Shown here: one piece after another, positions 7,255-23,048 of the stretch
How positions within the stretch are numbered: the stretch's first letter is position 1
Layout of the letters: each line of letters begins with the position of its first letter
Assembly: GCA_018662005.1 (NCBI GenBank)
Contig: JABJHA010000008.1
Span: forward strand, 62,001 to 126,000
DNA length: 64,000 nt
Reading direction: 5' to 3'
DNA from: Rhodospirillaceae bacterium
Lineage (GTDB): Bacteria; Pseudomonadota; Alphaproteobacteria; Rhodospirillales; JABHCV01
The notes under the pieces: model-generated
Databases searched by the model: none
What the model was told of the DNA's origin: nothing
The model's input: only the letters and a program-made list of their open reading frames with translations
Made by a program: the position numbers and the translations under genes

Positions 7255-7889
7255 CCGCCTTGCGCATCTGTTTTGTTGGCGACAGCCTGATCAATGGAAC
7301 CAACGACGAGGAATTTCAGGGATGGCCCGGACGCCTGTGCGCCGCCGAATGCGCGCGCGGCCATGAGTTGACATATTATAATCTGGGCGTGCGCGCCGAA
7401 ACATCCGAACAGATCGAAATGCGCTGGCGCGCTGAATGCGAACCCCGCCTGCTTGATATTCATCCCGGGGCGCTGGTGTTCTCCTTTGGCGTCAATGATA
7501 TGGCGATAGAAAATTCCGGTGAGGTCCGGGTTTCCAGACAACGTTCCCTTGAGGTCGCCAAAAAGATGCTTGGACAAGCCCAGCAATGGAAGCCGACCTT
7601 GTGGATTGGACCGGTTCCGGTCGATGAAACACAACAGCCCTTCCAGTCCGCCCCCGGCGTCGCCTACCATTTTTCGACCGGGCGTATGGCCGAACTTTGT
7701 CGGGACTATGAGACCCTGGCTGCCGAGATGGGCATTCCCTACCTAAAACTCATCGAGCCCCTTGCCGGCGAAAAAGTTTGGCAAGAGTCGTTTCGGCAAG
7801 GTGACGGGGTCCATCCCGCCGGGCCCGGTTACCAATTGATGGCAGACAGAATCAGCACTTGGACGGCCTGGCGCAACTGGCTGGATTAA
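7251..7889 (+). CDS. SGNH/GDSL-type hydrolase
   Basis: A 212-residue protein starting at ATG 7251 inside the cca stop codon. The SGNH blocks are clear: block I FVGDSL (Ser12), block III FGVND (Asn82) and block V DGVHP (Asp185, His188), which gives the full catalytic triad. There is no signal peptide, so it should be cytosolic. GDSL hydrolases cleave esters or thioesters of varied substrates and this one cannot be assigned further. It is the last gene before a 289-bp AT-rich gap ahead of the act operon. Confidence 0.85.
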   Translation: MTALRICFVGDSLINGTNDEEFQGWPGRLCAAECARGHELTYYNLGVRAETSEQIEMRWRAECEPRLLDIHPGALVFSFGVNDMAIENSGEVRVSRQRSLEVAKKMLGQAQQWKPTLWIGPVPVDETQQPFQSAPGVAYHFSTGRMAELCRDYETLAAEMGIPYLKLIEPLAGEKVWQESFRQGDGVHPAGPGYQLMADRISTWTAWRNWLD

Positions 7890-8178
7890 AGCTGCACCTT
7901 TTATTAAAAATCAGTCCAATTATTATATTAGAATTACTTAATAAAGGTAAATAAGTCGCACCGGGAACAGTCACTAGCACCCACCTGACAAGGTAGTTCT
8001 ATTCCTCCTCACAGAAGCAGTAGTAATTGATGACACTTTTATACTAAGGTGCTTCCGAATCATTTAAGAAGTTACGTGCTGAGGACTGATTTTTGATTAC
8101 CATTACTATATTATCTAATTCTAATATTGCGACTAACTTGCGCCGTACTGCGACCTCCCATTTTAGAGAGTGTCGTTC
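7890..8178 (+). other. AT-rich leader ahead of the act operon with two interleaved inverted repeats
   Basis: No gene fits in this 289-bp stretch. It holds two perfect 12-bp inverted repeats: aaaaatcagtcc (7906-7917) with its complement at 8083-8094, and atattagaatta (7925-7936) with its complement at 8116-8127. Their order is A-B-A'-B', so both pairings together would form a pseudoknot-like or alternating structure rather than a nested hairpin. The act promoter must lie here or inside the upstream gene. I could not fix -35/-10 boxes with confidence. Confidence 0.4.
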
Positions 8179-8877
8179 GTGAAGGCTGAAGCGAAAACCT
8201 GTCACGAACAATCCCACCGTCCGTCATTCAAATGGACACGGATGTGGGTTGTGCTCGTGCTCGCCGGTCTGCTTGGCGGACTGTCGCTGTCCGGCTCGCC
8301 TTCCGCCGATGAACTTTTGGCGCCACCACGCGTTCATACGCCGCCGGGCGCAGCCGATAGCGAGGATGAACCCCTGGGCCCGTTCCCCGGTGTTGTCGCC
8401 CCTGAAGGCACATACGATGGCAAGAATGTCGAACAACCGATCGAATTCCCCCATGACCTTCACGCCGACACCAACAAGATCAATTGCCTGTACTGCCATA
8501 CCTACGCACGCCGTAGCGCCGTCGCAGGAATTCCGCCGACGTCAAAGTGTATGGGCTGTCACAGCGTTATCGCCACGGATCGCCCGCGCATCAAAAAGCT
8601 GACGGAATATTGGGAAAAGGGCGAATCACCACCGTGGAAAAAAGTTCATGACCTTCCCGATTTTGTCCGCTTCACCCACGAGAGGCATTTAAAGAAATTC
8701 CTGTTCGACAATCCCGACATGGATGTTGAGCGTGTCGACGAGGTCTGCGCCCTGTGTCATGGAGACGTCAAGAAAATGACTGTCGCCAAGAAACAAAAAC
8801 CACTGACCATGGGATTCTGCACCCGCTGTCACGAGGCCAATGACGGTCCCTTCGATTGCCAGAAGTGTCACAAGTAG
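8179..8877 (+). CDS. actA: Alternative complex III pentaheme cytochrome subunit ActA
   Basis: A membrane-anchored periplasmic protein with five CxxCH heme c sites in order: CLYCH, CMGCH, CALCH, CTRCH, CQKCH. A hydrophobic N-terminal helix (MWVVLVLAGLLGGLSL) serves as signal anchor. I prefer GTG 8179, 8 nt after GAGAG; GTG 8170, in frame, would add three residues. Five hemes and roughly 230 residues match ActA, which passes electrons from the Fe-S subunit of alternative complex III towards its cytochrome partners. It is the first gene of an actA-F operon and is followed 26 bp later by actB1. Confidence 0.9.
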   Translation: MKAEAKTCHEQSHRPSFKWTRMWVVLVLAGLLGGLSLSGSPSADELLAPPRVHTPPGAADSEDEPLGPFPGVVAPEGTYDGKNVEQPIEFPHDLHADTNKINCLYCHTYARRSAVAGIPPTSKCMGCHSVIATDRPRIKKLTEYWEKGESPPWKKVHDLPDFVRFTHERHLKKFLFDNPDMDVERVDEVCALCHGDVKKMTVAKKQKPLTMGFCTRCHEANDGPFDCQKCHK

Positions 8878-8903
8878 AGCATTTTAGAGGAAGTATACCG
8901 GCA

Positions 8904-11132
8904 ATGAGCAAAATCGAATTTGATCGCAGGGATTTCCTCAAAGTTATGGGCGTCAGTGGAGTCGCGGCCACCGTTGCCGGTTGCGATATGCCCTCCTACA
9001 TCACCTCCGAAGAAGGCGTTGAAGAAGTCATCCCTTACCTGTCGCCGGAAGAATTCGTTATTCCCGGTGTCGGTGTCCATTACGCCTCGACATGTCTGCA
9101 ATGCCCGGCAACCTGCGGAATCCGCGGTCGGGTTCGCGAAGGGCGGGTGTTGAAACTTGAAGGCAATCCGAAGAGCGCTTTAAACACTGGCAAACTGTGC
9201 CAGATGGGACAGGCCGGATTGCAGGCCCACTACAACCCGGACCGCCTGACAAAGCCCCTGGTTCGCAAGGACGGCGCGCTTGCCGAGGCCACCTGGGAAG
9301 ATGCCCTGGCCCTGATAGAAGAAAAAACCGGTCCGTCTTCGGGGATTTCGGGCACCCGCTTTGCCTGGCTTACCGGCACCACCAGCGGTCACCAAAGCGT
9401 CTTGCTGAAGGCCCATCTGGAAAGCCTCGGCTCGTCCAATCATTTTGTCCACGAAGTCATAAACAGCAAGGTTTGGCAGGCCGTCTGCCAGGATATGCTG
9501 GGCCAATCCATGCCCCGCTTGCGCATCGACAAAGCCAAAATGGTGTTGTCCTTCGGCGCCGATTTCCTGGGCACATGGATGTCGCCTATTCATTTTTCCG
9601 CCGACTACGCCAAATTCCGTTCCGGTGAAGACCGCGGCATGTTGGTACAGGCCGAGCCGTCGATGTCGCTGACCGGCGCCAACGCTGATCTGTGGGTCGC
9701 CCTGCGCCCCGGAACCGAGGGCGTTATGGCTTTGGGACTGGCTAATGTTCTGATTAACAAGGAACGCATGGACGCATCGGCCCTGCCCGCCGACGCCCTG
9801 CAACTGATCAACCAGTACGGCGTTTCGAGGACCACTAGAATAACCGGTATCGCCGGTGATCGCCTGATCCGCATTGCCCGGCACTTGAAAGAACGTTCGC
9901 CAAGTCTGGTTCTGGCTGGCCAGTCAGCCGCGGCCCACGCCGATGGTTTTCAGTCCGTACAGGCGGCGATGTTGTTGAATGTTCTGCTTGGTAACATCGA
10001 CCAAACTATTGAAGCCAATGGCGGTTTTGCTTTGCCGCAACTGGCCTCGGTCAGTGGCGGAACCTCTGATCTGGCGCGTTTTGCAGACGCCGCCGGGGCC
10101 GGAAAGCTCGATGCCGTCTTCTTTGATGGCAGCAACCCGCTTTTCGCCGCACCCAGCCACCTTGGCCTGAACGAAAAATTCGACGCCATCCCCTTCAAGG
10201 TTGCCTTCAGCCAGTTCATGGACGAAACCACGGCCCACGCCGATGTCGTCCTGCCCATGGCCTCACACCTTGAAGATTGGGGAACCCACGTCGCGGCTTA
10301 TCAAGGGGCTGATCACGAAATTGCCTTCCAGCAGCCACTGATGGAATCAATTCATCCCGGAACCCGCAGTTTTGGTGACATGTTGCTGGCCTTGAATTCC
10401 ATGCGCAACCCTGGCCCATTTGACGGGCTGGAAGACTACTACGCCTATCTGCAAAGTGCTGTTGGATCGATCCCCGGCGTCCTCAGGGGCGAGGATGATG
10501 AAGGTATCAACACCAGCGCCTGGAACCGGATTTTACAAGACGGACGCCTGCAAATGCCAATCGACACCAGGGCCCTTGCCAGCAACATTTCCGCCAATGA
10601 CATGGACGTCAAGGAGGCCGACCCGGCGTTCCCTTATTATCTGGTGCCGACCCCGCGCAGCACTCTTTACGATGGCCGCCACGCCAACATACCGTGGCTG
10701 CAGGAATCACCTGACCAAATCAGCAAAGTGGTGTGGAATTCATGGGCTGAAATCCATCCGGTTACCGCCGCCAAGCTGGGTGTCGAGGAAGGCGATGTCA
10801 TCACCGTCACAACCACCGACGGCTCACTTGAAGTGCCGGTCTACATTCATAAAGGCATTCACATTGACGTTGTCGCCGTGCCCATGGGACAGGGCCATAA
10901 GGAATATGGCCGTTACGCCAAGGGACGCGGAGTCAACCCGTTGAAAATTCTGAGCCCCGGCAGCGACGCCAAAACCGGCGAACTGGCCCTTTTCGGCAGC
11001 CGGGCGGCCCTTGCCGCGACTGGCCGGGCCGGTCGTCTGGTCAAAATGGGCAACACTGAAACACAACATGGTCGCAAGATTGTCGCCACCATCACCGCCG
11101 AACAACAACGCCGCAACGAAGGGGACTCTTAA
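8904..11132 (+). CDS. actB1: Alternative complex III subunit ActB, molybdopterin-oxidoreductase-like half (B1)
   Basis: A 742-residue protein from ATG 8904. It has an N-terminal twin-arginine signal (FDRRDFLKVMG), then a DMSO-reductase-family fold ending in a molydopterin-dinucleotide-binding-like domain (about 600-720). In ACIII this domain has lost molybdenum. Here four cysteines in the family's Fe-S spacing remain (C64, C67, C71, C99; C-x2-C-x3-C-x27-C), while I see no clear Cys/Ser/Asp molybdenum-ligand motif in the expected region. In many ACIII operons B1 and B2 are one protein; here the Fe-S half is a separate gene 3 bp downstream. Confidence 0.88.
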   Translation: MSKIEFDRRDFLKVMGVSGVAATVAGCDMPSYITSEEGVEEVIPYLSPEEFVIPGVGVHYASTCLQCPATCGIRGRVREGRVLKLEGNPKSALNTGKLCQMGQAGLQAHYNPDRLTKPLVRKDGALAEATWEDALALIEEKTGPSSGISGTRFAWLTGTTSGHQSVLLKAHLESLGSSNHFVHEVINSKVWQAVCQDMLGQSMPRLRIDKAKMVLSFGADFLGTWMSPIHFSADYAKFRSGEDRGMLVQAEPSMSLTGANADLWVALRPGTEGVMALGLANVLINKERMDASALPADALQLINQYGVSRTTRITGIAGDRLIRIARHLKERSPSLVLAGQSAAAHADGFQSVQAAMLLNVLLGNIDQTIEANGGFALPQLASVSGGTSDLARFADAAGAGKLDAVFFDGSNPLFAAPSHLGLNEKFDAIPFKVAFSQFMDETTAHADVVLPMASHLEDWGTHVAAYQGADHEIAFQQPLMESIHPGTRSFGDMLLALNSMRNPGPFDGLEDYYAYLQSAVGSIPGVLRGEDDEGINTSAWNRILQDGRLQMPIDTRALASNISANDMDVKEADPAFPYYLVPTPRSTLYDGRHANIPWLQESPDQISKVVWNSWAEIHPVTAAKLGVEEGDVITVTTTDGSLEVPVYIHKGIHIDVVAVPMGQGHKEYGRYAKGRGVNPLKILSPGSDAKTGELALFGSRAALAATGRAGRLVKMGNTETQHGRKIVATITAEQQRRNEGDS

Positions 11133-11135
11133 GCA

Positions 11136-11987
11136 ATGTCTCTCGTCAGAAACTTTATCGAAGACTGGTCGCGTTATCGCAGAAGCATCGACGAAGGCGG
11201 CTTCCACGAATATGAACACATGTGGGGCATGGTCATCGACCTTGATAAATGCACCGGCTGCAATGCCTGTTCGGTCGCCTGTTACGCCGAAAACAATCTG
11301 GCCGTGGTTGGCGAGGACAAGTTTGAAAACGGCCAAGGTATGCACTGGATGCGTATCGAACGCTATTGGGACGAGCCGAACCTGGGCAACGAGCGGGTCC
11401 GCGATACCCAGGAGCATGGCGCTTCGTTCATGCCGATGATGTGCCAACAATGTAATTCAGCGACTTGCGAACCGGTTTGCCCGGTTTCGGCCGCCTACCA
11501 CACCCCAGATGGCCTTAACGCCCAGATTTATAACCGCTGTGTCGGTTCGCGTTACTGCGCCAACAACTGCCCGTATCGTCTGCGCTATTTCAATTTCTTC
11601 TCTTACTACGAAGACAGCTGGCCGTCGCCGCTGGATATGCAGTTGAACCCGGATATTTCCGTGCGCGACAAGGGCGTTATGGAAAAGTGCACCTTCTGCG
11701 TTCAGCGCATCAGGTCCACCAAAAACGCCGCCAAGATGGAAGACCGTGATGTCATCGACGGCGAAGTGCAGACGGCGTGTCAACAAACCTGCCCGACAAC
11801 GGCGATTGTTTTCGGTGATCTTCTTGATCATGAAAGCGATGTTCACAAGCTTTGGCATAAACACCAGACCCGCCTTGGCACGACGAAGCAGAATAAAGAT
11901 AACCCTGAATTGCGCGGATACAGGCTCTACGAACAACTCAATACCGAGCCCTCCGTCACCTACCTGGAACGGGTGCGAGACGTTTAA
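11136..11987 (+). CDS. actB2: Alternative complex III subunit ActB, iron-sulfur half (B2)
   Basis: A 283-residue ferredoxin-type protein of the DmsB/HybA class with four cysteine groups: CTGCNACSVAC near residue 31; CQQCNSATCEPVC near 106; CVGSRYCANNCPY near 135; CTFC with CQQTC near 187 and 210. These can hold up to four Fe-S clusters that wire the quinol site to ActA. The protein lacks its own Tat signal and presumably travels with B1, whose signal is intact (inference). Its stop overlaps the actC start by one base. Confidence 0.9.
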   Translation: MSLVRNFIEDWSRYRRSIDEGGFHEYEHMWGMVIDLDKCTGCNACSVACYAENNLAVVGEDKFENGQGMHWMRIERYWDEPNLGNERVRDTQEHGASFMPMMCQQCNSATCEPVCPVSAAYHTPDGLNAQIYNRCVGSRYCANNCPYRLRYFNFFSYYEDSWPSPLDMQLNPDISVRDKGVMEKCTFCVQRIRSTKNAAKMEDRDVIDGEVQTACQQTCPTTAIVFGDLLDHESDVHKLWHKHQTRLGTTKQNKDNPELRGYRLYEQLNTEPSVTYLERVRDV

Positions 11988-13423
11988 TGGCTGAGGAAAC
12001 ACACGTACACGCGACCAAGGATATCGACGAGAAAATCGCCTGGGCGAAGATCAACACCGATGTCCTAAGGAGTATGGAAAACCCGCGCATGGGTTACTGG
12101 CTGGCTGTTGGCGTCAGTATTTGCATGTTGATGGTCGGCGTCTATTCGGAAGTCTACCAGTACAACGTCGGCATGGGCCCGGCGCAGTTGAACAATCCGC
12201 ACATGTGGGATTTGTATATATCTACCTTTGTGTTCTGGATTGGCATGAGCCACTCAGGCACGTTGCTGTCGGCTATTTTGCATTTGTTCCACGCCGACTG
12301 GCGCAAGCCGATCTACCGTTTTGCCGAGGCCATGACCACGTTCTCGCTGATGACGGCGCTGGTCTTCCCGATCATTCACTTAGGGAGGGTCTGGAACATG
12401 CACTGGGTTATTCCCTATTACAGTGACCGTGGCATCTGGCCGAACTTCAGATCACCGCTGGTTTGGGATGCTTTCGCCATCACCACCTACCTGACCGGAT
12501 CGGTGCTGTTCCTGTATATTGGCATGATCCCTGATCTGGCGATTTGCCGTGATAACGCCATTGGCTGGCGCAAACGCCTGTACACCTTCATGTCCGTTGG
12601 CTGGCGCGGCGATGACCGGCAGTGGCGCAACTTCCGCAAGACTTATCTTCTGATGGCCTGTTTCCTGATCCCGCTGGCGGTGTCCGTGCACTCCATCGTT
12701 GCCGCCGATTTCGCCATGGCGATCATGCCGGGCTGGCACGTTACTTCATTCCCGCCCTACTTCGTTTCCGGGGCCCTGTATTCTGGCTGTGCGGCGATTA
12801 TCACCCTGTTCGTGCTGCTGCGGTATTTCTTCAAGTTCGAGCAGTACATGACCCTGCCGATTCTCGACAAAACCTGCAAGCTGACCTTCGCCATCGCCAT
12901 GGTCTGGTCCTATTTGAACCTGATTGAGTTCGCTTCTGTCTGGTACGGCCATGACATACCGGCCAAGGAAGTGCTGATCGCCAAGTTCACCGGCCCTTAC
13001 TCACCCTTCTTCTTGGGCATGTTATTCTGCGGTTCGGTGCTGCCCTTTACCCTGGCTTTTGAGAAAATCCGCCGCAACCCGATGTTGCTGCTACCTATTT
13101 CCATCTTCCTAAACGTCGGCATGTGGCTGGAACGCTACATGATCGTCGCCCCGACCCTGTCCCTGTCCTATCACCCCTGGAGTTGGGATGTCATGTGGCC
13201 GGGCTGGGTTGAGTGGGGCATTGTCTTTGGCAGCTTCGGCTGGTTTGGCCTGCTGTTCCTTATCTTCGTCAAGGTGTTCCCGTCGGTGTCCATGTACGAG
13301 GTCAAGGAAATGGTCTACCACCGCCGTCGTGTGGTCTATGAAGACGCCGAACTGAGAGCCCATGAGTATAAGACGGGCGCTTCGGGCGCCAGCAGCGCCG
13401 CCCCGGCGACGGAGGGCTCTTAA
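11987..13423 (+). CDS. actC: Alternative complex III NrfD-like membrane subunit ActC
   Basis: A 478-residue integral membrane protein with about ten transmembrane helices, starting one base inside the actB2 stop. It contains the NrfD/PsrC-family features: FVFWIGMSHSGTLLSAIL in the early helices and a charged loop before HVTSFPPYFVSGALYSG. ActC is the subunit thought to bind menaquinol or ubiquinol and pass electrons to the Fe-S subunit. An Ala/Gly/Ser-rich C-terminal tail follows the last helix. actF downstream is its paralogue. Confidence 0.92.
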   Translation: MAEETHVHATKDIDEKIAWAKINTDVLRSMENPRMGYWLAVGVSICMLMVGVYSEVYQYNVGMGPAQLNNPHMWDLYISTFVFWIGMSHSGTLLSAILHLFHADWRKPIYRFAEAMTTFSLMTALVFPIIHLGRVWNMHWVIPYYSDRGIWPNFRSPLVWDAFAITTYLTGSVLFLYIGMIPDLAICRDNAIGWRKRLYTFMSVGWRGDDRQWRNFRKTYLLMACFLIPLAVSVHSIVAADFAMAIMPGWHVTSFPPYFVSGALYSGCAAIITLFVLLRYFFKFEQYMTLPILDKTCKLTFAIAMVWSYLNLIEFASVWYGHDIPAKEVLIAKFTGPYSPFFLGMLFCGSVLPFTLAFEKIRRNPMLLLPISIFLNVGMWLERYMIVAPTLSLSYHPWSWDVMWPGWVEWGIVFGSFGWFGLLFLIFVKVFPSVSMYEVKEMVYHRRRVVYEDAELRAHEYKTGASGASSAAPATEGS

Positions 13424-13427
13424 GGTT

Positions 13428-13973
13428 ATGGCTAAAAAAACCCCCAAGAAAAGGCTGCTCGGGCTGTTTGGCGATTTTGAACAAGCGATCAAGGTGATTA
13501 TCGATATCCGCCAATACGAAGTTCCCGGCGTCAATGTCGACAATATCACCATCAAGTCGCCCATCGAACATCCCGAGATCGAGGAAATCCTTGGCGACCG
13601 GCCCTGCCATGTATCCAAATTCACGTTGTCGGGCGCCCTGTTCGGCTTGATTTTTGGCGCCTTCTTCCTGGCCGCTGCCCAGGCCAACTTCCTGATCCAG
13701 CCGCAAGGCGGAAAGCCGGTTATCACCATCACCTCGAATCTGGTGCTGATATACGAAATGCTGATCCTGTTCGGAATGCTGGCGACCTTTATCGGCTTCC
13801 TGTTCGGGGCTGGCCTGATGCGCAAGCGTTCGACCCTGGATGATGAAATGATCAGCCTTGATCAGGTCGGCATCGTTATCGAAGTCGAAGATGAAAACAT
13901 CGACCCGGTCATGGCGTTGTTTGAAAAACACCATGTGCTTGAGGTCAGGGACAGGGAGCTCACGGACATATGA
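13428..13973 (+). CDS. actD: Alternative complex III membrane subunit ActD (DUF3341)
   Basis: A 181-residue protein from ATG 13428, 4 bp after the actC stop. It has an N-terminal cytosolic alpha/beta domain (GLFGDFEQAIKVIIDIR), two transmembrane helices (about 68-88 and 105-128) and a C-terminal alpha/beta segment. This is the DUF3341/ActD layout: a small subunit that packs against ActC and ActF. Its end overlaps the actE start (ATGA). Confidence 0.9.
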   Translation: MAKKTPKKRLLGLFGDFEQAIKVIIDIRQYEVPGVNVDNITIKSPIEHPEIEEILGDRPCHVSKFTLSGALFGLIFGAFFLAAAQANFLIQPQGGKPVITITSNLVLIYEMLILFGMLATFIGFLFGAGLMRKRSTLDDEMISLDQVGIVIEVEDENIDPVMALFEKHHVLEVRDRELTDI

Positions 13974-14545
13974 GACATCTTTTCCCGTTCCCGCTTGCAT
14001 TCGTCTGCCTGATGCTGGCCGCTGCCGCCCTGTTGGCGCCCACCCCGGCCCATGCATGGCCCTGGTCGACCGACATGATGAACCAACCCAACGTCAAGCC
14101 ACAGGAAGGCCCCATGCGTCCCTTCCCAAGGCGTTCGGTTCCGGTAAGCGGCATCCCGACAGAAATCATCGACCGCGACGAGGCCGAAGAAATGGCTAAT
14201 CCTTATCCGCCAAGCCCGGCATCCATTGGAACCGGGCGGACCCTGTTCAAAATCTATTGTGCTGCCTGTCACGGCATTGCCGGGCGGGGTGATACCCCCG
14301 TCGCCGAACTGATTGGCACCGTTGATTTGACCGACCCCGATATGGTCGGCGACCTGACAGACGGCTGGATCTTCGGCACCATCACCTTCGGCAGCGCCAT
14401 TATGCCCGCTTACGGCGTCACTAACGAAGAAGGGGAATATCGCGGTTCTAACGATTTAAATGTCGAGGAACGCTGGCATGTCGTTAATTACATTCGCAAC
14501 GGCCTGGTTGCCGACGCCGAAATGCGCGAGGCAGCTGCACAATGA
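13970..14545 (+). CDS. actE: Alternative complex III monoheme cytochrome c subunit ActE
   Basis: A 191-residue exported protein: a signal sequence with core LPFAFVCLMLAAAALLAPT-like hydrophobic stretch (about residues 6-25), then a class I cytochrome c domain with CAACH near residue 95 and a C-terminal Met candidate in SAIMPAYG. ActE is the monoheme subunit of ACIII that can hand electrons to a soluble cytochrome or directly to an oxidase. The start lies inside the actD stop (ATGA). Confidence 0.9.
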   Translation: MRHLFPFPLAFVCLMLAAAALLAPTPAHAWPWSTDMMNQPNVKPQEGPMRPFPRRSVPVSGIPTEIIDRDEAEEMANPYPPSPASIGTGRTLFKIYCAACHGIAGRGDTPVAELIGTVDLTDPDMVGDLTDGWIFGTITFGSAIMPAYGVTNEEGEYRGSNDLNVEERWHVVNYIRNGLVADAEMREAAAQ

Positions 14546-14583
14546 AGAAAACCTGTTTTTTTAACAAAATGAGCGCCTGAGCC

Positions 14584-15627
14584 ATGGAAGATTTCGGTAG
14601 CTGGTCGATCATCACGACGAATTTCCTCATTGTTCTATATTTGGCCTTGGGGGGCGTTATCCTTTCGTCACTGCTGCATCTGGTGAACGCCAAATGGCGC
14701 TTTCAGATCCGCTGGCTGGCCTGCGCCAACATGGCGTTATTCCCCATCGCCTTTGTCCTGTTGCTGATTTTGCTATCCAACGGCGAGGCCACATTCCCGT
14801 GGCTGGCCACGGCCCATAATGAAGGCGTACATCTGCCGGGATGGCAAAACTATACCTTCCTGGTGATCCGCGAGATCGGTGGCTTTATCTTCGCCTTTGG
14901 CCTCTGCTACGCCTACGTCAAATTGCAGAAACAGGCCGAAATTGACCCGGCACCCGCCGTCCAGCGACGCTTCCGCAATGTGGCCCTGACCATCCCCTTC
15001 CTTTATGTCATCTACGGCAGCATGGTCGCCTGGGATTTTGAAATGACCATGGAAGCCGGATGGCACAGTGCCAGTTACGCGGCCTATCAGTTCCAAAGCA
15101 ACTTCCACGGCTTTCTCGCCTATTTTGTCCTGATGCTCTACGTCATGGATAAAACAGGCAATATGAAGGACGACTTCGAGCGTAAAATTTACAACTATCT
15201 GGCCCAGCTTATTCTTGGCATGACCATTTTGTGGATTTACTTCTACTTCACCCAGTACCTGGTTTTCTGGTATGGCCGTCTGCCCTTCGAGATGGATCGC
15301 TTTATTCGTATGCTCGAGGGTGGTTACTACCCGCTTATGGCGCTGTTCCTGACCTGCAAGTTCATCATTCCGTTCTGTACCTTTATCTTCACCCCGGCCC
15401 GCCACAGCCGTCCGACTGTGGTTATTGTGGCGGTGTTCATTCTTGCCGGGACATGGCTTGAACGTTACGTGTGGATTTCAGGGTCCGTTGCCAGCCGCTA
15501 TTTCCACACGCCCCTGTCAAACTCCTTTGACCTGCTGGTCACCGGCTTGATCATGGCGGCTGTGTTCATGTCACTGCGTTGGCAACTGAACCGCGAGAAT
15601 TTGCTCAAAAACCGTCAATCGGTCTGA
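14584..15627 (+). CDS. actF: Alternative complex III NrfD-like membrane subunit ActF
   Basis: A 347-residue integral membrane protein with about ten helices, related to ActC but shorter, beginning MEDFGSWSIITTNFL. The MTMEAGWHSASYAAYQFQSN stretch and the WERY-type motif (GTWLERYVW) near the C-terminus resemble those of ActC. ActF completes the actA-B1-B2-C-D-E-F set. It starts 38 bp after actE. Its last 13 bp overlap the convergent trmL gene, leaving no room for a separate terminator. Confidence 0.9.
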   Translation: MEDFGSWSIITTNFLIVLYLALGGVILSSLLHLVNAKWRFQIRWLACANMALFPIAFVLLLILLSNGEATFPWLATAHNEGVHLPGWQNYTFLVIREIGGFIFAFGLCYAYVKLQKQAEIDPAPAVQRRFRNVALTIPFLYVIYGSMVAWDFEMTMEAGWHSASYAAYQFQSNFHGFLAYFVLMLYVMDKTGNMKDDFERKIYNYLAQLILGMTILWIYFYFTQYLVFWYGRLPFEMDRFIRMLEGGYYPLMALFLTCKFIIPFCTFIFTPARHSRPTVVIVAVFILAGTWLERYVWISGSVASRYFHTPLSNSFDLLVTGLIMAAVFMSLRWQLNRENLLKNRQSV

Positions 15628-16061
15628 CGCAAGGCCTCTCCCAGAACCATAGCCGCTGCGATGGCGACGTTGAGTGAGCGCGCGCCGGGCGCCATTGGCA
15701 CCTGCAATTGCGCATGGGCGGCGGCAAAAACATCGTCCGGAACCCCGGCGCTTTCACGGCCGACCATGATGATGTCGTCGGCCCGGAAGGGAAAATCCGT
15801 ATAAACGGTTTCAGCTTTCGTCGACAACAACACCAGCCGCACCCCTTGAACATCTATTTCCTGCTTGAAGGATTGCCAGGAGGAATGCCGGGTGACATCG
15901 GCATCTTGCAGATAATCCATAGCGGCGCGTTTTAACTGCCGGTCGGAAAAAACGAACCCACAGGGCTCGATAATATCGACGGCGATATCAAGACACATGG
16001 CTGTACGCAGCAAGGTGCCGGTATTTTGTGGAATATCCGGTTGATAGAGGGCGAGACGCAT
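15615..16061 (-). CDS. trmL: tRNA (cytidine/uridine-34-2'-O)-methyltransferase TrmL
   Basis: A 148-residue SPOUT-fold methyltransferase with the full TrmL motif set: MRLALYQPDIPQNTGTLLRT (motif 1), IIMVGRESAGVP (motif 2, knot) and PMAPGARSLNVAIAAAMVLGEA (motif 3, SAM-binding trefoil knot). It methylates the ribose of the wobble base in leucine tRNAs. In alphaproteobacteria trmL commonly lies beside petABC, as here; it is divergent from petA across a 177-bp gap and overlaps actF tail to tail. Confidence 0.93.
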   Translation of the reverse strand: MRLALYQPDIPQNTGTLLRTAMCLDIAVDIIEPCGFVFSDRQLKRAAMDYLQDADVTRHSSWQSFKQEIDVQGVRLVLLSTKAETVYTDFPFRADDIIMVGRESAGVPDDVFAAAHAQLQVPMAPGARSLNVAIAAAMVLGEALRQTD

Positions 16062-16238
16062 GTTTTATTCATTCAGACTGTGAAAATTGATCCATGTTAA
16101 GGCATAATGCACGAAAGACCTGATTTTATCCCTTTGCATCCAGGATTGTATTGATTATACCCTTCTGCCAATCTAGGGCGCGCCCGGCAACAAGATCAGA
16201 TTTAAATCGTCCCGAACGGACACCTAAGAGGTTCTTTC

Positions 16239-16793
16239 ATGACCGACCAAGCAAGTGACGACACGGCAACCCCTGAAGAAAGTGCCAGCAGGCGTGATTT
16301 TCTGCAAATAGCCACCTATACGGTTGGCGCGGTTGGCGCCGGTTTGGCCGTCTGGCCAATTGTTGACAGCATTAACCCGCCGGCAGATGTTCTCGCCCTT
16401 GCTTCGACAGAGGTTGATCTTTCACCCGTCGAAGTCGGACAGAGCATCACTGTTATCTGGCGTGGCCGTCCGGTCTTCGTTCGCCACCGTTCGGAAAAGG
16501 AAATCGAAGACGCAAGGGCCGTCCCCCTGGACGCCATGCCTGACCCGCAAAGCGATGATGACCGAACGCAAAAGCCGGAATGGCTGATTATGGTCGGCAT
16601 CTGCACCCATTTAGGATGCATTCCCAACGGCCAGCGGCCAACTGATCCTAAGGGAGACTTCGGCGGCTGGTTCTGCCCCTGTCACGGTTCCCACTATGAT
16701 TTGTCCGGACGCATACGAAAAGGCCCGGCCCCGACGAACCTTGAAATTCCGACTTATGAATTCGTTGACGATACAACCATCAAAATCGGCTAA
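16239..16793 (+). CDS. petA: Ubiquinol-cytochrome c reductase Rieske iron-sulfur subunit
   Basis: A 184-residue protein. The N-terminal Tat-type signal anchor (SRRDFLQ then a hydrophobic helix, about 18-45) is kept as the membrane anchor. The Rieske [2Fe-2S] ligands are C122/H124 in CTHLGC and C146/H149 in CPCHGS; C127 and C148 form the stabilising disulfide. It takes electrons from ubiquinol at the Qo site and passes them to cytochrome c1. It is the first gene of the petABC operon, 12 bp before petB. Confidence 0.96.
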
Positions 16794-16805
16794 GGGAATT
16801 ATAAA

Positions 16806-18035
16806 ATGAAACTATCAAAATCCATCATTTTGCCCTTTCTTGACTGGGTTGATTATCGTCTTCCGGTATTTTCCTATGCACGGGAAAACCTGATTGATTA
16901 TCCGACGCCAAAGAACCTGAACTACTGGTGGAATTTCGGATCGCTTGCCGGCATCGTCCTGATGATAATGATCATCACCGGGTTTTTCCTGGCCATTAAC
17001 TACACCCCGCACACGGATTACGCCTTTTCCAGCGTCGAGCACCTGATGCGCGACGTTAACTATGGCTGGCTGCTGCGCTTTATGCACGCCAACGGCGGCT
17101 CCATGTTCTTTATCCTGGTCTACATTCACATGTTCCGCGGCCTGTATTTCGGCTCTTTCAAAGCGCCGCGAGAATTGCTGTGGATCATCGGCGTGGTCAT
17201 CTATCTGTGCATGATGGGCACCGCCTTCATGGGTTATGTGTTGCCCTGGGGACAAATGAGCTACTGGGGTGCTACCGTTATCACCAGCCTGTTTTCCGCC
17301 GTCCCCATTATTGGCGATACAATCGTCACCTGGCTGTGGGGTGGCTTCGTCATCGATAACAACACCCTGACCCGCTTCTTCGTTGGTCACTACCTGATGC
17401 CGATGGTTATTTTCATGCTGGTTGTTGTTCACATGTGGGCCTTGCATGTCCATAAATCGAACAACCCGCTGGGCGTTGATATGCGGACCCCGGCTGACAG
17501 CATTCCCTTCCATCCTTATTACACCATCAAGGATATGGTCGGCATGGGCGTGTTCTTTATCGTCTACTTTGGATTTGTCTTCTTCGCCCCTGACTTCTTC
17601 GGCGAGCCTGACAACTATATCGAGGCCAACCCGCTGGTCACACCGCCGCACATTGTCCCCGAATGGTACTTCCTGCCGTTCTATGCAATCCTGCGTTCCA
17701 TCGACAATAAACTGATCGGCGTTATCGCCATGTTCGCCGGTGTCTGCATTCTGTTCGCCTTGCCGTGGATGGATCGTTGCCGGGTTCGCAGCGCCAAGTT
17801 CCGGCCGATTTACCGGCAGTTTTTCTGGCTGTTCTTCGCCGATTGCATCCTGCTTGGCTATATCGGCGCACAAACCGCCGTCGAGCCGTTTGTCACCATC
17901 GGCCGTATCGCCACCGCCTATTATTTCGCCCACTTCCTGATTATTTGCCCGCTTATCTGTAAGTTTGAACGACCCCTTGTGCCGCCGGAAAGTATCAGTG
18001 CGGGTGTTCTGAAAGCCCAGAAGGGAGCTGAATGA
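16806..18035 (+). CDS. petB: Cytochrome bc1 complex cytochrome b
   Basis: A 409-residue membrane protein with eight predicted helices, fused N- and C-terminal parts as in proteobacterial cytochrome b. Signature features: the paired heme-ligand histidines in helices B and D ([20 protein letters not shown] and [20 protein letters not shown] regions), [16 protein letters not shown] on the Qo side, and [14 protein letters not shown] (PEWY motif). It carries hemes bL and bH and both quinone sites. Its stop overlaps the petC start (ATGATG). Confidence 0.97.
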
Positions 18036-18823
18036 TGCGTATCAACATGACGTTCCCGCGCACCATTGGCGCCGCCTGTGCCGGTGTTCTGCTTGCCACA
18101 GCGATCAGCACAGCGGCCCAGGCATCCGGTGACAGCGTCAAACTGGAAAAACAGGACTGGTCCTTCAATGGTATTTTCGGCACTTATGACAGAGGTGCCT
18201 TGAAACGCGGTTATCAGGTTTATTCCGAAGTGTGCGTTAGCTGCCACTCCCTGAATTATGTCGCCTATCGTAATTTGATGGATATTGGCTTCGAGGAAAC
18301 AAACGTCAAGGAAATCGCCGCCGAATTCGAGGTCGAGGACGGCCCAAATGACGAAGGTGAAATGTACCTGCGTCCGGCCCGCCCCTCGGACCGCTTCGTC
18401 GCCCCTTATGCTAACGAGAAAGCCTCCCGTGCAGCCAACAACGGTGCTTTCCCACCTGATTTGTCGCTGATGGCGAAAGCCCGTAAGGGTGGTCCGGATT
18501 ATCTTTTCGGCCTTCTGACCCGTTATCATGAAGAAGCGCCCGAGGGCATGGAACTGGCCGATGGCATGAGTTATAACGAGGTCTTCCCTGGCCATCAGAT
18601 CGCCATGTCGCAGCCCCTGGAAGATGAGTCGGTTGAATACGAGGACGGCACGCCTGCGACACTGGTTCAGCACGCAAAAGACGTCACCACCTTCCTGGCC
18701 TGGGCTGCAAGTCCGGAAATGGAGCACCGCAAACGTCTTGGCATCAAGGTCATGCTATTCCTGTTCGTGTGGACAGGCATGTTGATCGCCCTGAAGAAAA
18801 AAATCTGGGCAAAGCTGCATTAG
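18032..18823 (+). CDS. petC: Cytochrome bc1 complex cytochrome c1
   Basis: A 263-residue exported cytochrome: an N-terminal signal peptide ending about ...TAAQASG, a heme site CVSCH near residue 69, the axial-Met region near HQIAMSQPL (about 190), and one C-terminal transmembrane anchor ([20 protein letters not shown]). It receives electrons from the Rieske protein and reduces cytochrome c. ATG 18032 and ATG 18035 are adjacent possible starts. Three tandem hairpin repeats follow 10 bp after the stop. Confidence 0.96.
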
Positions 18824-18832
18824 AGCATTCAT

Positions 18833-19003
18833 ATCGATCAAATTACCCACCATTAAATTAAGTGATTTGATGGCAGTTTGATCTTTGTATGATCGATCAA
18901 ATTTCCCGCCATTATATGAAGTCATTTGATGGCGGTTTGATCTTTGTATGATCGATCAAATTTCCCGCCATTATATGAAGTCATTTGATGGCGGTTTGAT
19001 CTT
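18833..19003. repeat. Three tandem 59-bp hairpin-forming repeats
   Basis: Units begin at 18833, 18892 and 18951 with a period of 59 bp. The third is truncated after 53 bp and is identical to the second over that length; the first is diverged in the middle. Each unit folds into a stem: GATCAAA, a TTTC bulge, CCGCCAT, an 11-16-nt loop, then ATGGCGGTTTGATC. They fill the gap between the convergent ends of petC and the cytochrome gene at 19005-19409. They may act as bidirectional terminators or mRNA-stabilising ends, or be a REP-like element (inference). Confidence 0.85.
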
Positions 19004-19004
19004 G

Positions 19005-19409
19005 CTAGTTGTTCAGGGCGCCCCGGTTAATCCAGCGGCGTAGCATCAGTTTTTCCCATTTGCTCAACTCTTTGCGGCCACCGTGGGGCATCTTCAGCAT
19101 GGCGTTGGCGCGTCCTTCGATCAACACCATCATGTTACTTGAGAATGCGTCACCCGGAACAATGATCGAGCCATATTCTGTGCCCTTCATCAGGCTTTCA
19201 TAAGTACTCATATCCAGTTTGCTTTTCTCGTAACCTTCCTGGCCGGGAACATGACATTCCAGACAATGCTTTTCCAGGATCGGCATAACCTCAGCTTTAA
19301 AGGTGGCGTGATCGGCGCGCGCACTTGTCGACAAAACCAGTCCAATGAGCCCGGCCCCAAGCAGAAGTCCTTTGGGGAAACATAAACATCGTGATTTCCG
19401 CACAAACAT
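19005..19409 (-). CDS. Exported monoheme cytochrome c with planctomycete-type (PSCyt1-like) domain
   Basis: A 134-residue protein with a signal peptide (LLLGAGLIGLVLSTSARA, cleavage near residue 32), one heme site CLECH near residue 49, and the LDMSTYESLMKG...IVPGD...MPHGG pattern typical of the 'cytochrome c, planctomycete-type' domain. That domain usually sits at the N-terminus of larger proteins; here it stands alone. It is the last gene of a five-gene leftward electron-transfer cluster and ends 2 bp from the tandem hairpin repeats. Confidence 0.8.
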   Translation of the reverse strand: MFVRKSRCLCFPKGLLLGAGLIGLVLSTSARADHATFKAEVMPILEKHCLECHVPGQEGYEKSKLDMSTYESLMKGTEYGSIIVPGDAFSSNMMVLIEGRANAMLKMPHGGRKELSKWEKLMLRRWINRGALNN

Positions 19410-19450
19410 AGCAACCTCCTTTCGCTTTCTAACTCTCCCTTATTCAGCCC

Positions 19451-20653
19451 TTACATCTGGGCCCGTTTTGGTTCCGTATCCATGCTCTTGCCTTCAAAGA
19501 TCGGAATGAAACGGCTGATCACGTAATACGTCACAAACGGTGCAACCATGATAGTCCCGGCTGTCAACAACCCTTCCTTGGCAAAGAATTCAAACTCGTA
19601 ATGGACGAACCCGCGTTCTGATTTTGAAATCAACTGACCGCCGACAACGACATTGAAGCGCATCACCAGCACCTGGAAGATCAGCATCAGGCTGCCCAGG
19701 TTGCCCAGATAAAGCAGCGCCTTATCCCTGATATCCAGAAGCGAGACAATGCCAAGCACCAGTATCGGGCCAAGCGACAGGAAGCCCATTTGGCCAAGCA
19801 CATAGGAATTATACAAAGGTCCCATCAGCAGCGGCTTGATAACGGCCCAGTGGGCTCCTTGCTCATAACTGACGAAGGTAATTTCCAGAATCTCCAGCGC
19901 GTAATCCAGAATAAACGCTATCCACAAGGTGATGATGAACTTCTTGATCAGGACGTAGTCGTAACCCTGTCCGCGCCGCCACATAATAAAGCTGTACATA
20001 AGAAACATCATGGCGATGCCACTGACAATGGCAGAGGACAGGAAGATAAACGGCTGCAGCGCCGTCGCCCACCAGGCGACCGCTTTCACAGAACCGAAGA
20101 CAAACCCCACATATCCATGCAACAGGCAAGCCCAGGGAATACCGATGCCGGCCAGGAATTTGGCTAATTTTTTATCGAACGCGGCCGATTCCGGATTGTA
20201 GGTGGTAATACCCAGGCACAGGATTTTCCAGAAAATTGCCATGTTTCCGGCGGCTTCATTGGCTTTTTCGATGAACACCTTCCGGTAGATAACCCAGATT
20301 TCGATCATCAGAAGCACCAGATAACTGGAGTACACATAACCGAAAATACTCATCGCCGAGGTTGTGTGTGGTGTGGTGTAGATCTGGTAGGCCCGTTGCG
20401 GTTGGCCCAGATGAACCAGCAGGGGCATGGCCGCAAACAGGCCGAAACTGAACGCCGCAACCAGCGCAAAATTGGCAATCGGCTTGAATTCCTTGACCCC
20501 AAAGACATGGTACATCGATGACAGCACAAAGGCGCCCGCGACCAGCCCTGTAATGTAGGGGTAGATGACAATCATGATCGACCAGGTGACATGGGCGTTA
20601 TTGGGAAAGATGTAATTGACCAGGGCACCATCAGGCAGTCCAAAGGCTTCCAT
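19451..20653 (-). CDS. NrfD/PsrC-family membrane quinone-interacting subunit
   Basis: A 400-residue integral membrane protein with about eight to ten helices. The start chosen is ATG 20653, which shares one base with the upstream stop (TGATG) and has GGAGG 8 nt before it; the open frame reaches 20689. NrfD/PsrC-type subunits bind quinol in the membrane and exchange electrons with a periplasmic Fe-S protein, which is the next gene upstream. ISKSERGFVHYEFEF near the C-terminus is not part of a motif I know. The charge-rich last 15 residues are cytosolic. Confidence 0.88.
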   Translation of the reverse strand: MEAFGLPDGALVNYIFPNNAHVTWSIMIVIYPYITGLVAGAFVLSSMYHVFGVKEFKPIANFALVAAFSFGLFAAMPLLVHLGQPQRAYQIYTTPHTTSAMSIFGYVYSSYLVLLMIEIWVIYRKVFIEKANEAAGNMAIFWKILCLGITTYNPESAAFDKKLAKFLAGIGIPWACLLHGYVGFVFGSVKAVAWWATALQPFIFLSSAIVSGIAMMFLMYSFIMWRRGQGYDYVLIKKFIITLWIAFILDYALEILEITFVSYEQGAHWAVIKPLLMGPLYNSYVLGQMGFLSLGPILVLGIVSLLDIRDKALLYLGNLGSLMLIFQVLVMRFNVVVGGQLISKSERGFVHYEFEFFAKEGLLTAGTIMVAPFVTYYVISRFIPIFEGKSMDTEPKRAQM

Positions 20654-21468
20654 CACACAACCTCCCTTGGCAAGCCGATATAGAAGCAAGTCGGATCGGT
20701 ATGCATTTCAGGTTTCAAAACCATCCACTGATCGGCTTCAAAAAGTTTCGAGACTTCACTGTCGATATCATTGAGATCGCCAAACAACCGCGCCTTTTGC
20801 GGGCAGACAGTGACACACGCCGGCAGCAGACCCTTTTTCACCCGGTGATAGCACCAGGTGCACTTGTCTGACTTATGCTCGACAGGATTAATGAAACGCG
20901 CCCCGTAAGGACAGGCCTGGACGCAGTAGCCACAGGCCATGCAGTAATCCCGGTCAACCAGCACGAACCCTTCGGGTGATTTGAAGGTGGCGCCGACCGG
21001 GCAGACCTGAACACATGGCGGGTTGTGACAGTGATTGCACATTTTGGGTACCGTGCGGCTGAGTTTGATATTTTCCCGGAACCGCTTGTTGAGCTTTTCA
21101 AAACCCTCAATTGCTCCCTTGGGCGAGTCGACGTAGACGCCTTCATCCCTGACCACATAGCGTTCGACCCAGGTACGGAAATAATCAGTCGGCACGCTGT
21201 TTTCACGCTTGCAGGCACGCACGCAGTTGCCGCAACCGATACACTTGCTGACATCGATGATATAGGCATATTTGTGTTCGGCTTGATCCCTGTGCTGCGA
21301 GCCCCCTGTTTCGGGTCCGTGTGCCATAGCACCCGGTCCAAAAACCATCAGCACGGTCGCCGTCGCCGTCCCTTCGAGCAGACGCACCAGGAATTCCCGT
21401 CGGGAGTCGGGTATTTTGGAATTTTCCATATCGATTAATTCCTTCGCGATTTTATTTTGCTTCTGCAT
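20653..21468 (-). CDS. Tat-exported four-cluster Fe-S protein (DsrO/NrfC type)
   Basis: A 271-residue protein. It carries a twin-arginine signal (SRREFLVRLLEG, about residues 18-29) and a hydrophobic stretch, so it should be periplasmic. Four cysteine groups follow: CIGCGNCVRAC (about 76), CNHCHNPPCVQVC (about 143), CMACGYCVQACPYG (about 177), and CTWC with CVTVC (about 199-215), fitting four [4Fe-4S] clusters. It pairs with the NrfD-type subunit downstream as in DsrOP or NrfCD. The stop overlaps the NrfD start by one base; the start is 3 bp after the tetraheme gene's stop. Confidence 0.9.
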   Translation of the reverse strand: MQKQNKIAKELIDMENSKIPDSRREFLVRLLEGTATATVLMVFGPGAMAHGPETGGSQHRDQAEHKYAYIIDVSKCIGCGNCVRACKRENSVPTDYFRTWVERYVVRDEGVYVDSPKGAIEGFEKLNKRFRENIKLSRTVPKMCNHCHNPPCVQVCPVGATFKSPEGFVLVDRDYCMACGYCVQACPYGARFINPVEHKSDKCTWCYHRVKKGLLPACVTVCPQKARLFGDLNDIDSEVSKLFEADQWMVLKPEMHTDPTCFYIGLPREVV

Positions 21469-21471
21469 GGC

Positions 21472-21951
21472 CTAAGGCGTCGGGTCATGCGGCGTGTGAC
21501 AGGCGGTACAGACCATGTCGGGTTCAATTTCCCCATGCTCCTCGACCTTTTTCAGGTCGAATTGAGGGAAGTTTTCGGGCTTGCTAACCCGTGCGTCATG
21601 ACAATTCAGGCATTGCCATGTCGATTCGTCGTCAACCACCGCGTCAGCGATTTTCTCGCCTTCTTTAACATGATCGGCAAGCGCCCCGTGGCATGACTCA
21701 CACGACAGCGCCTGATGCTTGAATTCGGCGAGTTCCTGGTTAACTTCCTCGTGACAGGTGACGCAGGACTGATTGCCGCCATAAGAAACCTCGTAGCTTG
21801 CGTTGAGCGTCAGGGCGTCGCTACGGTACCAGTCCTTGTAATTCCAACTCGATGGCGTCGCCACTTCCTTGATAACAAGAAACACGAAAATGGCGCCGAT
21901 AAGGACCGCCGCGAGTCGAACGATGTGGGCTTTTGGGCCTGGTAACGACAT
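21472..21951 (-). CDS. Membrane-anchored tetraheme cytochrome c
   Basis: A 159-residue protein: an uncleaved-looking N-terminal helix (VRLAAVLIGAIFVFLVIKEV, about residues 11-30) anchors a periplasmic domain with four heme sites in order CVTCH, CESCH, CLNCH and CTACH. Extra histidines (FKHQAL, ALADHVKEG, EEHGE) could act as distal ligands for bis-His hemes, as in NapC/NrfH and c554-like cytochromes. In the cluster it is well placed to carry electrons between the Fe-S protein and the soluble cytochrome upstream. Confidence 0.88.
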   Translation of the reverse strand: MSLPGPKAHIVRLAAVLIGAIFVFLVIKEVATPSSWNYKDWYRSDALTLNASYEVSYGGNQSCVTCHEEVNQELAEFKHQALSCESCHGALADHVKEGEKIADAVVDDESTWQCLNCHDARVSKPENFPQFDLKKVEEHGEIEPDMVCTACHTPHDPTP

Positions 21952-21992
21952 GGTTTTCTTCTCCCGGAAAAAAGCCGGACAAATCCGAAGTC

Positions 21993-22367
21993 TTATTTAA
22001 GAGTCTTCAGGTAGGCGATGATGACGGCGCGCTGATCTTCTTTTTTCAGCTTGTAAGCCATGGTTTTGGCGCCAACGAATTTCTTCGGATTAGCCAAAAA
22101 CTGATCCATGTTCTTATCATCCCAAACCACGTCAGAGCCCTTTAAACCCTTGTATTTGGCGAAGTCTGTGGAGCCCGCTTTGCGACCGATAATACCGGCC
22201 AATGAAGGGCCGTTTTTATGCTTTCCGGCCTCTGTCGAGTGACAGCTGCCACATCTTTTCTTGAAAAGTTTCGCCCCGTCTTCTGCGTCGGCAAAGGAAA
22301 TGGAAGGACTGGAAATTAATGTCAGAACAAAAATTCCAGAAAGAACCGTCAACCATGATTTTTTCAT
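21993..22367 (-). CDS. Exported class I cytochrome c (c2/c550-like)
   Basis: A 124-residue protein with a cleavable signal (LTVLSGIFVLTLISSPSISFA, cleavage near residue 26), heme site CGSCH near residue 40, and the axial methionine in GAKTMAYKL near residue 102. The GPSLAGIIGRKAG segment is typical of mitochondrial-type and c2-type cytochromes. It is the first gene of the cluster and probably its soluble electron carrier. It lies about 45 bp downstream of the predicted FNR-type promoter. Confidence 0.9.
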   Translation of the reverse strand: MKKSWLTVLSGIFVLTLISSPSISFADAEDGAKLFKKRCGSCHSTEAGKHKNGPSLAGIIGRKAGSTDFAKYKGLKGSDVVWDDKNMDQFLANPKKFVGAKTMAYKLKKEDQRAVIIAYLKTLK

Positions 22368-22417
22368 CGGACTGCACCTTAAATCTGACCATAATTAAAA
22401 TTACAAATTGTAAGGTT

Positions 22418-22458
22418 AATATAGATGGATGATTCAGGGGATCGTTGACGTAGATCAA
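22418..22458 (-). promoter_or_regulatory. FNR/CRP-family operator and promoter for the cytochrome cluster
   Basis: TTGATCTACGTCAA, read leftward (22445-22458), matches the FNR/NNR consensus TTGAT-N4-ATCAA at nine of ten positions. A -10 box TATATT lies at 22423-22418. With a start site near 22411 the operator is centred at about -41, the class II activator position, which is where a -35 box would otherwise be. This predicts activation at low oxygen or by nitric oxide, depending on which family member binds. Confidence 0.6.
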
Positions 22459-22510
22459 AAATGATCAAATACGATCTTTAAAATAAAACTAAATCATATG
22501 AGTTTCGCAC

Positions 22511-22912
22511 TCAGGAATCTTCATTTGTCTCCTTGCGCCCCAACCAGGGCATCAACGCTGCGCCCGCAACGATGTTTGTCGCCAGCGGCACCTTGTTCAG
22601 GTCACAAACCCTGTAGAAAGGTGAAATATCGGGCTGACGCTCACCTGTGGCCAGCGGATCACGCAGAAAGAAGACCGCCCGGATGACACCCGTCGTACAA
22701 ATCAGTCCACACAGATGAATCTCGCCACCCTGGGAATTTGAATGAAGGGCGGAAACTTCAAGCCCCAACTCTTTTTCAATGATGGCACCTGTTTCCTTCG
22801 TTGATAACAGGCGGTAGGACTCGAAAATTGGCCGATTGGTCTTGATCAGCTTGACCAATTGATCTGCCATTGCCTCGTGGGCGATCAGGATCAGGGATTT
22901 GGCCGTCGTCAT
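22511..22912 (-). CDS. Methylglyoxal synthase-like protein with altered active site
   Basis: A 133-residue MGS-fold protein. By comparison with E. coli MgsA (recalled, not searched), the family segments are present: LILIAHEAM (phosphate loop), STKETG, SNSQGGE, FFLRDPL and PLATN. D85 (as Asp91) and D95 (as Asp101) are kept, but the catalytic Asp71 position is Glu64 and the His98 position is Arg92. MgsA converts dihydroxyacetone phosphate to methylglyoxal; whether this one does is open. It lies divergent from the MFS gene and downstream-facing towards the FNR-type promoter region. Confidence 0.7.
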   Translation of the reverse strand: MTTAKSLILIAHEAMADQLVKLIKTNRPIFESYRLLSTKETGAIIEKELGLEVSALHSNSQGGEIHLCGLICTTGVIRAVFFLRDPLATGERQPDISPFYRVCDLNKVPLATNIVAGAALMPWLGRKETNEDS

Positions 22913-23048
22913 GGTATTTTCTTACAGTTAGAAATTATTGTTTCGATTATGAAAAATCCGTTTAATTGAAGTCTATATTCTACTAAAAAGGGGCAGCCCC
23001 GCCTTGATAATGATCAAAGCCGCTCCGCAAGCGGTCATTGGAAAATAA

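Follow-up and report, generated by a model that had tools for sequence, protein, structure and literature searches.

In cable bacteria, a locus named pACIII has been proposed to transfer electrons from quinone to the periplasm by a route distinct from bc1 and is uncharacterised (PMC11976967), and a 'DsrOhPh-tetrahaem' locus, with bis-His hemes in the tetrahaem protein, has been described from cable bacteria and some Gamma- and Betaproteobacteria (PMC13047784). According to the latter study, a TMH1 gene is unique to cable bacteria, most beta- and gammaproteobacterial carriers have a full rDsr pathway, and 5 of 16 carriers are without sulfur metabolism. A HaoA-like/NrfD/4Fe-4S/cytochrome locus in Thermosulfurimonas dismutans and Dissulfuribacter thermophilus has been proposed to serve nitrite reduction (PMC5276818). 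We analyzed a cluster of this kind, consisting of five minus-strand genes at 22367-19005 in a stretch of 64,000 nucleotides from a Rhodospirillaceae bacterium (contig C8, 62001-126000; hereafter the window). The kind is already known from these loci and, in outline, from Geobacter CbcSTU; new are an alphaproteobacterial variant with dedicated cytochromes and conserved FNR control, and a survey of partners by clade. In the open-licence papers searched, we found no description of an alphaproteobacterial operon with two monoheme cytochromes, of its FNR boxes or of partners sorted by clade, and no report of a purified member of the core family. Our reading, to which we assign a probability of roughly 0.55, is that the cluster encodes an NrfD-based quinol:cytochrome c oxidoreductase module that an FNR/Nnr-type regulator induces when oxygen is low, while complex formation, the direction of flow, the acceptor and any proton translocation are what we infer from the following features.

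cytI, 21993-22367, minus strand: class I (c2/c550-type) monoheme cytochrome c with a signal peptide; 124 amino acids, one CXXCH, PF00034 at 52 bits
C4, 21472-21951, minus strand: tetraheme cytochrome c with an N-terminal membrane anchor; 159 amino acids, four CXXCH
FeS, 20653-21468, minus strand: PsrB/NrfC/DsrO-type protein exported by twin-arginine translocation (Tat); 271 amino acids, SRREFL Tat motif, 16 Cys
NrfD, 19451-20653, minus strand: predicted quinone-binding membrane subunit; 400 amino acids, PF03916 at 121 bits
PSC, 19005-19409, minus strand: PSCyt1-type monoheme cytochrome c with a signal peptide; PF07635 at 35 bits
FNR-type box TTGATCTACGTCAA, 22445-22458, minus strand: 9/10 match in the sequence upstream of cytI
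-10-like hexamer TATATT, 22418-22423, minus strand: read in the sequence, and found in the related locus L013 too

An earlier note on this DNA had described these five genes, and their place and strand were borne out by the sequence and by domain matches, as was a wiring of the DsrJOP, NrfBCD or Qrc type by heme, iron-sulfur (Fe-S) cluster and NrfD motifs. The reading frames of FeS and NrfD share one base. NrfD residues His81 (transmembrane helix 2), Ser99 and Arg332 (transmembrane helix 8) were present in 81 of 81 family sequences and correspond to the quinone-site acid/His, pocket Ser and gate Arg, an assignment made from sequence rather than structure by aligning NrfD to the genome's own DsrP and ActC and using a residue survey of the quinone-site His/Asp, pocket Ser and gate Arg in the NrfD family (PMC8076601). 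The genome's own DsrP has Asp, Ser and Ile at the three positions. A profile search of the PDB with the window NrfD gave no match at 0.001, and the best solved relative of FeS was PsrB (2vpw, 176 bits). Comparison of orthologues showed that the 16 Cys of FeS are invariant, which fits four 4Fe-4S clusters, and that C4 has four CXXCH plus invariant His 79, 94, 139 and 155 outside these motifs (8/8 orthologues), which fits four bis-His hemes and no open site. Since only bis-His-type motifs are present, C4 would act as a relay. A Met occupies the distal-ligand place in both monohemes, within KTM in cytI and KMPH in PSC, and is kept in 4/4 orthologues of each, which suggests that cytI and PSC have high potentials, above that of C4, and stand downstream of quinol.

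We then assessed the promoter. The box TTGATCTACGTCAA is centered at about -40.5 to -41.5, placed against the TATATT hexamer and a transcription start predicted near 22411, such that the FNR-type site at -41 in the earlier note is real. A sigma-70 scan did not list the hexamer, as there was no -35 match; such a match is usually missing at class II FNR promoters. The spacing between the box and the start codon of cytI is identical in three species, namely the window, L013/L018 (TTGATCTAAGTCAA) and L014/L019 (TTGATGTTGATCAA, a perfect match), L018 and L019 being Rhodospirillaceae metagenome-assembled genomes (MAGs) and the closest named relatives of the source. NrfD in the two relatives is 95% and 89% identical to that of the window, and the surrounding sequence has otherwise diverged. 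Boxes matching TTGAT-N4-ATCAA at no fewer than 9/10 positions and no more than 300 bp from the first gene occurred in 7 of the 13 loci of the window's clade, compared to 0.2 expected from dinucleotide shuffles; three of the seven are close relatives and hence not independent, and the remaining four (L022, L025, L026 and L028) are still above expectation. Because the position of TTGATCTACGTCAA is kept amid diverging sequence and boxes are in excess across the clade, the box is beyond chance. In L019, two more boxes precede PSC and a NapC/NirT gene, respectively; in L024, a CRP/FNR-family regulator gene and the core are transcribed away from each other, with a box in the intervening DNA. The source genome encodes CRP/FNR-family proteins with an E..SR recognition helix, and the cluster is probably controlled by a putative regulator of the FNR/Nnr type.

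The distribution of the core was assessed by a pattern scan of one genome per species (84,980 species), which gave 517 candidate relatives, of which the best 80 were examined; their neighbor table was redone with tblastn, as gene calling was unreliable in some GC-rich contigs. Among these best 80 of 517 loci, the Fe-S/NrfD pair was present in nearly all and a tetraheme or larger cytochrome lay upstream in most, and relatives of the core occurred in at least eight phyla. NrfD was found in 3 of 385 alphaproteobacterial genomes and 5 of the 40 nearest relatives (the source genome is counted in both), with two copies in G396, while a plasmid search found distant haloarchaeal NrfD only. In the NrfD tree the window fell in a clade of 15 rows (support 100/100) comprising alphaproteobacteria, gammaproteobacteria, Thiobacillus and one Akkermansiaceae MAG, with L023, L025, L026, L027 and L028 among its beta- and gammaproteobacterial members. 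Small cytochromes accompany the core in this clade, and no enzyme adjoins it except FccB in two gammaproteobacteria (L025 and L026), where genes for a diheme cytochrome and FccB come after NrfD. The layout of these two loci is a possible sulfide-to-quinone route through FccAB. In the sister clade (99/96), an octaheme cytochrome of the HAO/OCC type lies directly downstream of the core in 31/32 loci (31/80 overall), and in several of them nap genes are close by. This protein has matches to PF13447 and to the hydrazine dehydrogenase/HAO group, and among solved structures it is closest to 4qo5, the Ignicoccus octaheme cytochrome. Six Thermodesulfobacteriota and related loci have a NarI/HdrD-like protein, mostly with a heptaheme, in place of the octaheme. 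Core relatives in Ignavibacteriota adjoin cytochromes of 13-19 hemes, and the core of L022 is followed by a persulfide dioxygenase-rhodanese-like gene.

These results narrow the picture of a five-gene cluster without an enzyme that the earlier note had drawn: the absence of an adjacent catalytic subunit is true of the window and its closest loci, whereas the core as such is no orphan, and relatives with an adjacent catalytic subunit occur outside the window's close relatives and not among them. A quinol:cytochrome route different from bc1, also suggested there, stands insofar as the genes are separate, but such a route had already been proposed for cable bacteria (PMC11976967, PMC13047784).

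Several alphaproteobacterial copies of the core have a partner from a diheme cytochrome family, c9, whose gene immediately precedes the core in L016, L020 and L022, with multi-domain versions in L021, and Sulfurospirillum L097 joins c9, core and octaheme. In G388 and G396, homologues of c9 with 41-46% identity belong to nirS operons, which does no more than suggest a tie between the core and denitrification. In G397 (L021/L017) and G053 (L172), c9-type dihemes occur in tandem within single proteins of 8, 6 and 4 hemes.

Potential partners were sought in the source assembly (3.5 Mb, 96.5% complete, so that absences are provisional) by an inventory of stretches identified largely by reading translations. 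The genome encodes NapDABC (L137), a cbb3 oxidase (L145) and an aa3 oxidase (L144) besides bc1 and ACIII (alternative complex III), a nirS cluster with an NOR-like heme-copper oxidase on the window's contig (L134), and a full Dsr set (L007) that includes DsrL and DsrMKJOP, the dsr operon being on another contig. The source is a marine sulfur oxidizer and probably a denitrifier. Neither an MqnA/MqnD family protein nor a MenD above cut-off was found in it, and the likely quinone is therefore ubiquinone. A PF13447 octaheme protein was not found in G000, G385, G389, G396, G359 or G053, and an octaheme partner elsewhere in the source genome was accordingly rejected, as was a sulfide dehydrogenase partner, there being no match to the FCSD flavin domain (PF09242) in that genome. 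Within L134, positions 7800-20000 (C8, 30-42 kb) carry nirS, a cytochrome b-like gene with a 10/10 FNR box before it, a Sco-like protein and an NOR/cbb3-like oxidase in one run, and a similar nirS run occurs in G396 (L168). Another cluster (L142; C46, 1-7 kb) encodes a decaheme cytochrome, a Tat Fe-S protein, a molybdoenzyme and a TorD-like chaperone.

If the cluster is a quinol-oxidizing module, NrfD would bind quinol, probably ubiquinol, near the periplasmic face, and electrons would pass through the four Fe-S clusters of FeS to the anchored C4 and on to the soluble His/Met monohemes cytI and PSC. The module has no catalytic subunit of its own, and in respiration at low oxygen the two monohemes would carry electrons to terminal enzymes of the periplasm or membrane whose genes lie elsewhere. 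Candidate acceptors are NirS and the NOR-like oxidase, both encoded on the window's contig, the cbb3 oxidase and possibly others. The conserved NrfD residues, the bis-His motifs of C4, the distal Met residues, the FNR boxes and the L024 regulator support quinol oxidation under FNR/Nnr-type control, as do the octaheme sister clade, with a quinol-oxidizing layout for which nitrite reduction has been proposed (PMC5276818), c9 in nirS operons, and the NirS, Nap, cbb3 and aa3 systems of the genome. More tentatively, and with the odds somewhat against it, the module would represent a third class of ubiquinol:cytochrome c oxidoreductase beside bc1 and ACIII in one cell, anaerobically induced, without a catalytic subunit, equipped with its own high-potential monohemes, feeding denitrification and possibly translocating protons through NrfD. 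Several observations weigh against the quinol-oxidizing reading. NirS was found in G387 and G388 without the module and was absent from G053 with it (6/7 module carriers and 2/3 non-carriers have NirS, too few to tell), and the c9 family also occurs in a molybdoenzyme cluster of G053, such that its nirS link is not exclusive. In addition, quinol:cytochrome c activity is already available from bc1 and ACIII, and FccB beside the core in two gammaproteobacteria would suit electrons entering the quinone pool. No menaquinone pathway was found in the genome, and the low potential of many bis-His tetrahemes makes them a poorer match for the oxidation of ubiquinol.

The main rival is flow in reverse, with the module as a cytochrome c:quinone reductase that passes electrons from periplasmic oxidation of sulfur, or of another donor, to the quinone pool under anoxia, which we consider unlikely. 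The complete Dsr system of the source genome including DsrL and DsrMKJOP, the FccB loci L025 and L026, the persulfide dioxygenase-rhodanese-like gene of L022 and the rDsr pathway of most beta- and gammaproteobacterial carriers (PMC13047784) would all agree with it, and NrfD complexes run in both directions, QrcABCD reducing quinone; yet the source genome has no detected FCSD flavin domain, the His/Met motifs of the partner cytochromes suggest high potentials, 5/16 carriers are without sulfur metabolism (PMC13047784), and in the sister clade the core is paired with a reductase-like octaheme. That pairing in 31/80 loci, together with the joined c9, core and octaheme of Sulfurospirillum L097, would instead suit a nitrite (or hydroxylamine) reductase system from which the octaheme was lost or relocated, the small cytochromes feeding a multiheme reductase encoded elsewhere. 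We regard this as improbable, as PF13447 was found in none of the six genomes searched and NirS is available instead.

Two further explanations are each very improbable. A second DsrJOP-like unit helping DsrMK in sulfur oxidation could account for the scores of FeS on DsrO (181 bits) and NrfD on DsrP (43 bits), but both are below the cut-offs of those families, C4 is a tetraheme compared to the triheme DsrJ, and NrfD is far from the genome's own DsrP on the tree; a duplicate of DsrJOP was rejected given that the genome's own DsrJOP lies elsewhere, in the dsr operon (L007), and that two of the three key residues differ (His/Arg vs. Asp/Ile). Extracellular electron transfer, as with Geobacter CbcSTU or the multiheme-linked Ignavibacteria relatives, would be consistent with the 13-19 heme cytochromes beside the Ignavibacteriota core, but the window partners are small monohemes, and no outer-membrane conduit or large multiheme lies by the core in the window's clade except in Thiobacillus L027 (9-10 hemes) and L021 (an 8-heme c9 repeat protein).

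The neighborhood of the cluster includes two further features.

mgsA-like gene, 22511-22912, minus strand: directly upstream of the cluster; TIGR00160 at 90 bits, below the MgsA cut-off
FNR-type box TTGATCATTATCAA, 23004-23017, minus strand: 10/10 match, upstream of the mgsA-like gene

The mgsA-like gene is kept beside the cluster in three genomes, and in L019 sits between PSC and cytI, but its part in an electron-relay system is doubtful. Beyond the 3' end of the cluster, on the plus strand, lie the genes for bc1 (16239-18823) and ACIII (8170-15627; 3-11 kb from the cluster). Among the window neighbors examined, no molybdoenzyme or other terminal reductase lies beside the cluster except the ActB-type subunit of ACIII, and the cluster is, as the earlier note held, separate from bc1, ACIII and the genome's own DsrJOP. 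The B subunit of ACIII itself appears to be split in two genes (8856-11984), one molybdopterin-oxidoreductase-like and one for a separate Fe-S protein, with no single fusion. Between the convergent ends of the cytochrome c1 and PSCyt1 genes, positions 18833-19003 hold 2.9 tandem copies of a 59-bp unit that contains an inverted repeat, and blastn found no match to this array in the other loci compared, including the sister genome L013.

Compared to known systems, the window proteins scored below the family cut-offs wherever profiles were tested. NrfABCD was rejected (no NrfA or NrfB in the neighborhood; NrfC 155 bits, cut-off 378; NrfD 39 bits, cut-off 348), as were QrcABCD (no QrcA multiheme or QrcB molybdopterin-like gene adjacent; QrcC 86 bits, cut-off 400) and DsrMKJOP (no DsrM, DsrK or DsrJ at the cluster; cut-offs of 200 for DsrO and 350 for DsrP). 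NrfBCD, MccCD/SirCD, PsrBC, QrcCD and DsrOP share the Fe-S/NrfD redox pair with the cluster but, unlike it, mostly serve a known catalytic partner of their own operon, although SirCD can serve several routes (PMC11434368). ACIII (ActABCDEF) likewise has an NrfD-type subunit and Fe-S clusters leading to c hemes, with a quinone-site His and an Arg gate, whereas the window cluster has a tetraheme rather than the ActA multiheme, one NrfD rather than two, and neither an ActB molybdopterin-like domain nor ActD, ActE or ActF within 19005-22912; membership was rejected on these missing subunits, the true ACIII being at 8170-15627. Likened by description, Geobacter Cbc4 (CbcSTU) also combines a tetraheme, a 4Fe-4S protein and a membrane subunit that carry electrons from quinol to periplasmic cytochromes (PMC11434368, PMC10989804), but in a setting of extracellular electron transfer. 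The four-gene locus of PMC5276818 has the core gene types and layout of the octaheme sister clade, and its adjacent octaheme is absent in the window. With pACIII/DsrOhPh-tetrahaem, also compared by description, the cluster shares a bis-His tetraheme, a DsrO-like Fe-S protein and a DsrP/NrfD-like protein distinct from canonical DsrP, without a catalytic subunit and separate from dsrMKJOP. It differs in its dedicated monohemes (class I and PSCyt1), its conserved FNR boxes and its alphaproteobacterial host; no TMH1 was seen in it, and TMH1 does not define the wider kind. A core of the kind put forward as the missing cable-bacterial complex III stands here beside likely electron acceptors in one FNR-controlled operon, such that direction, acceptor and energy coupling become testable, and this operon connects the question raised by cable bacteria with those versions of the module that have an octaheme (nitrite) or a sulfide dehydrogenase.

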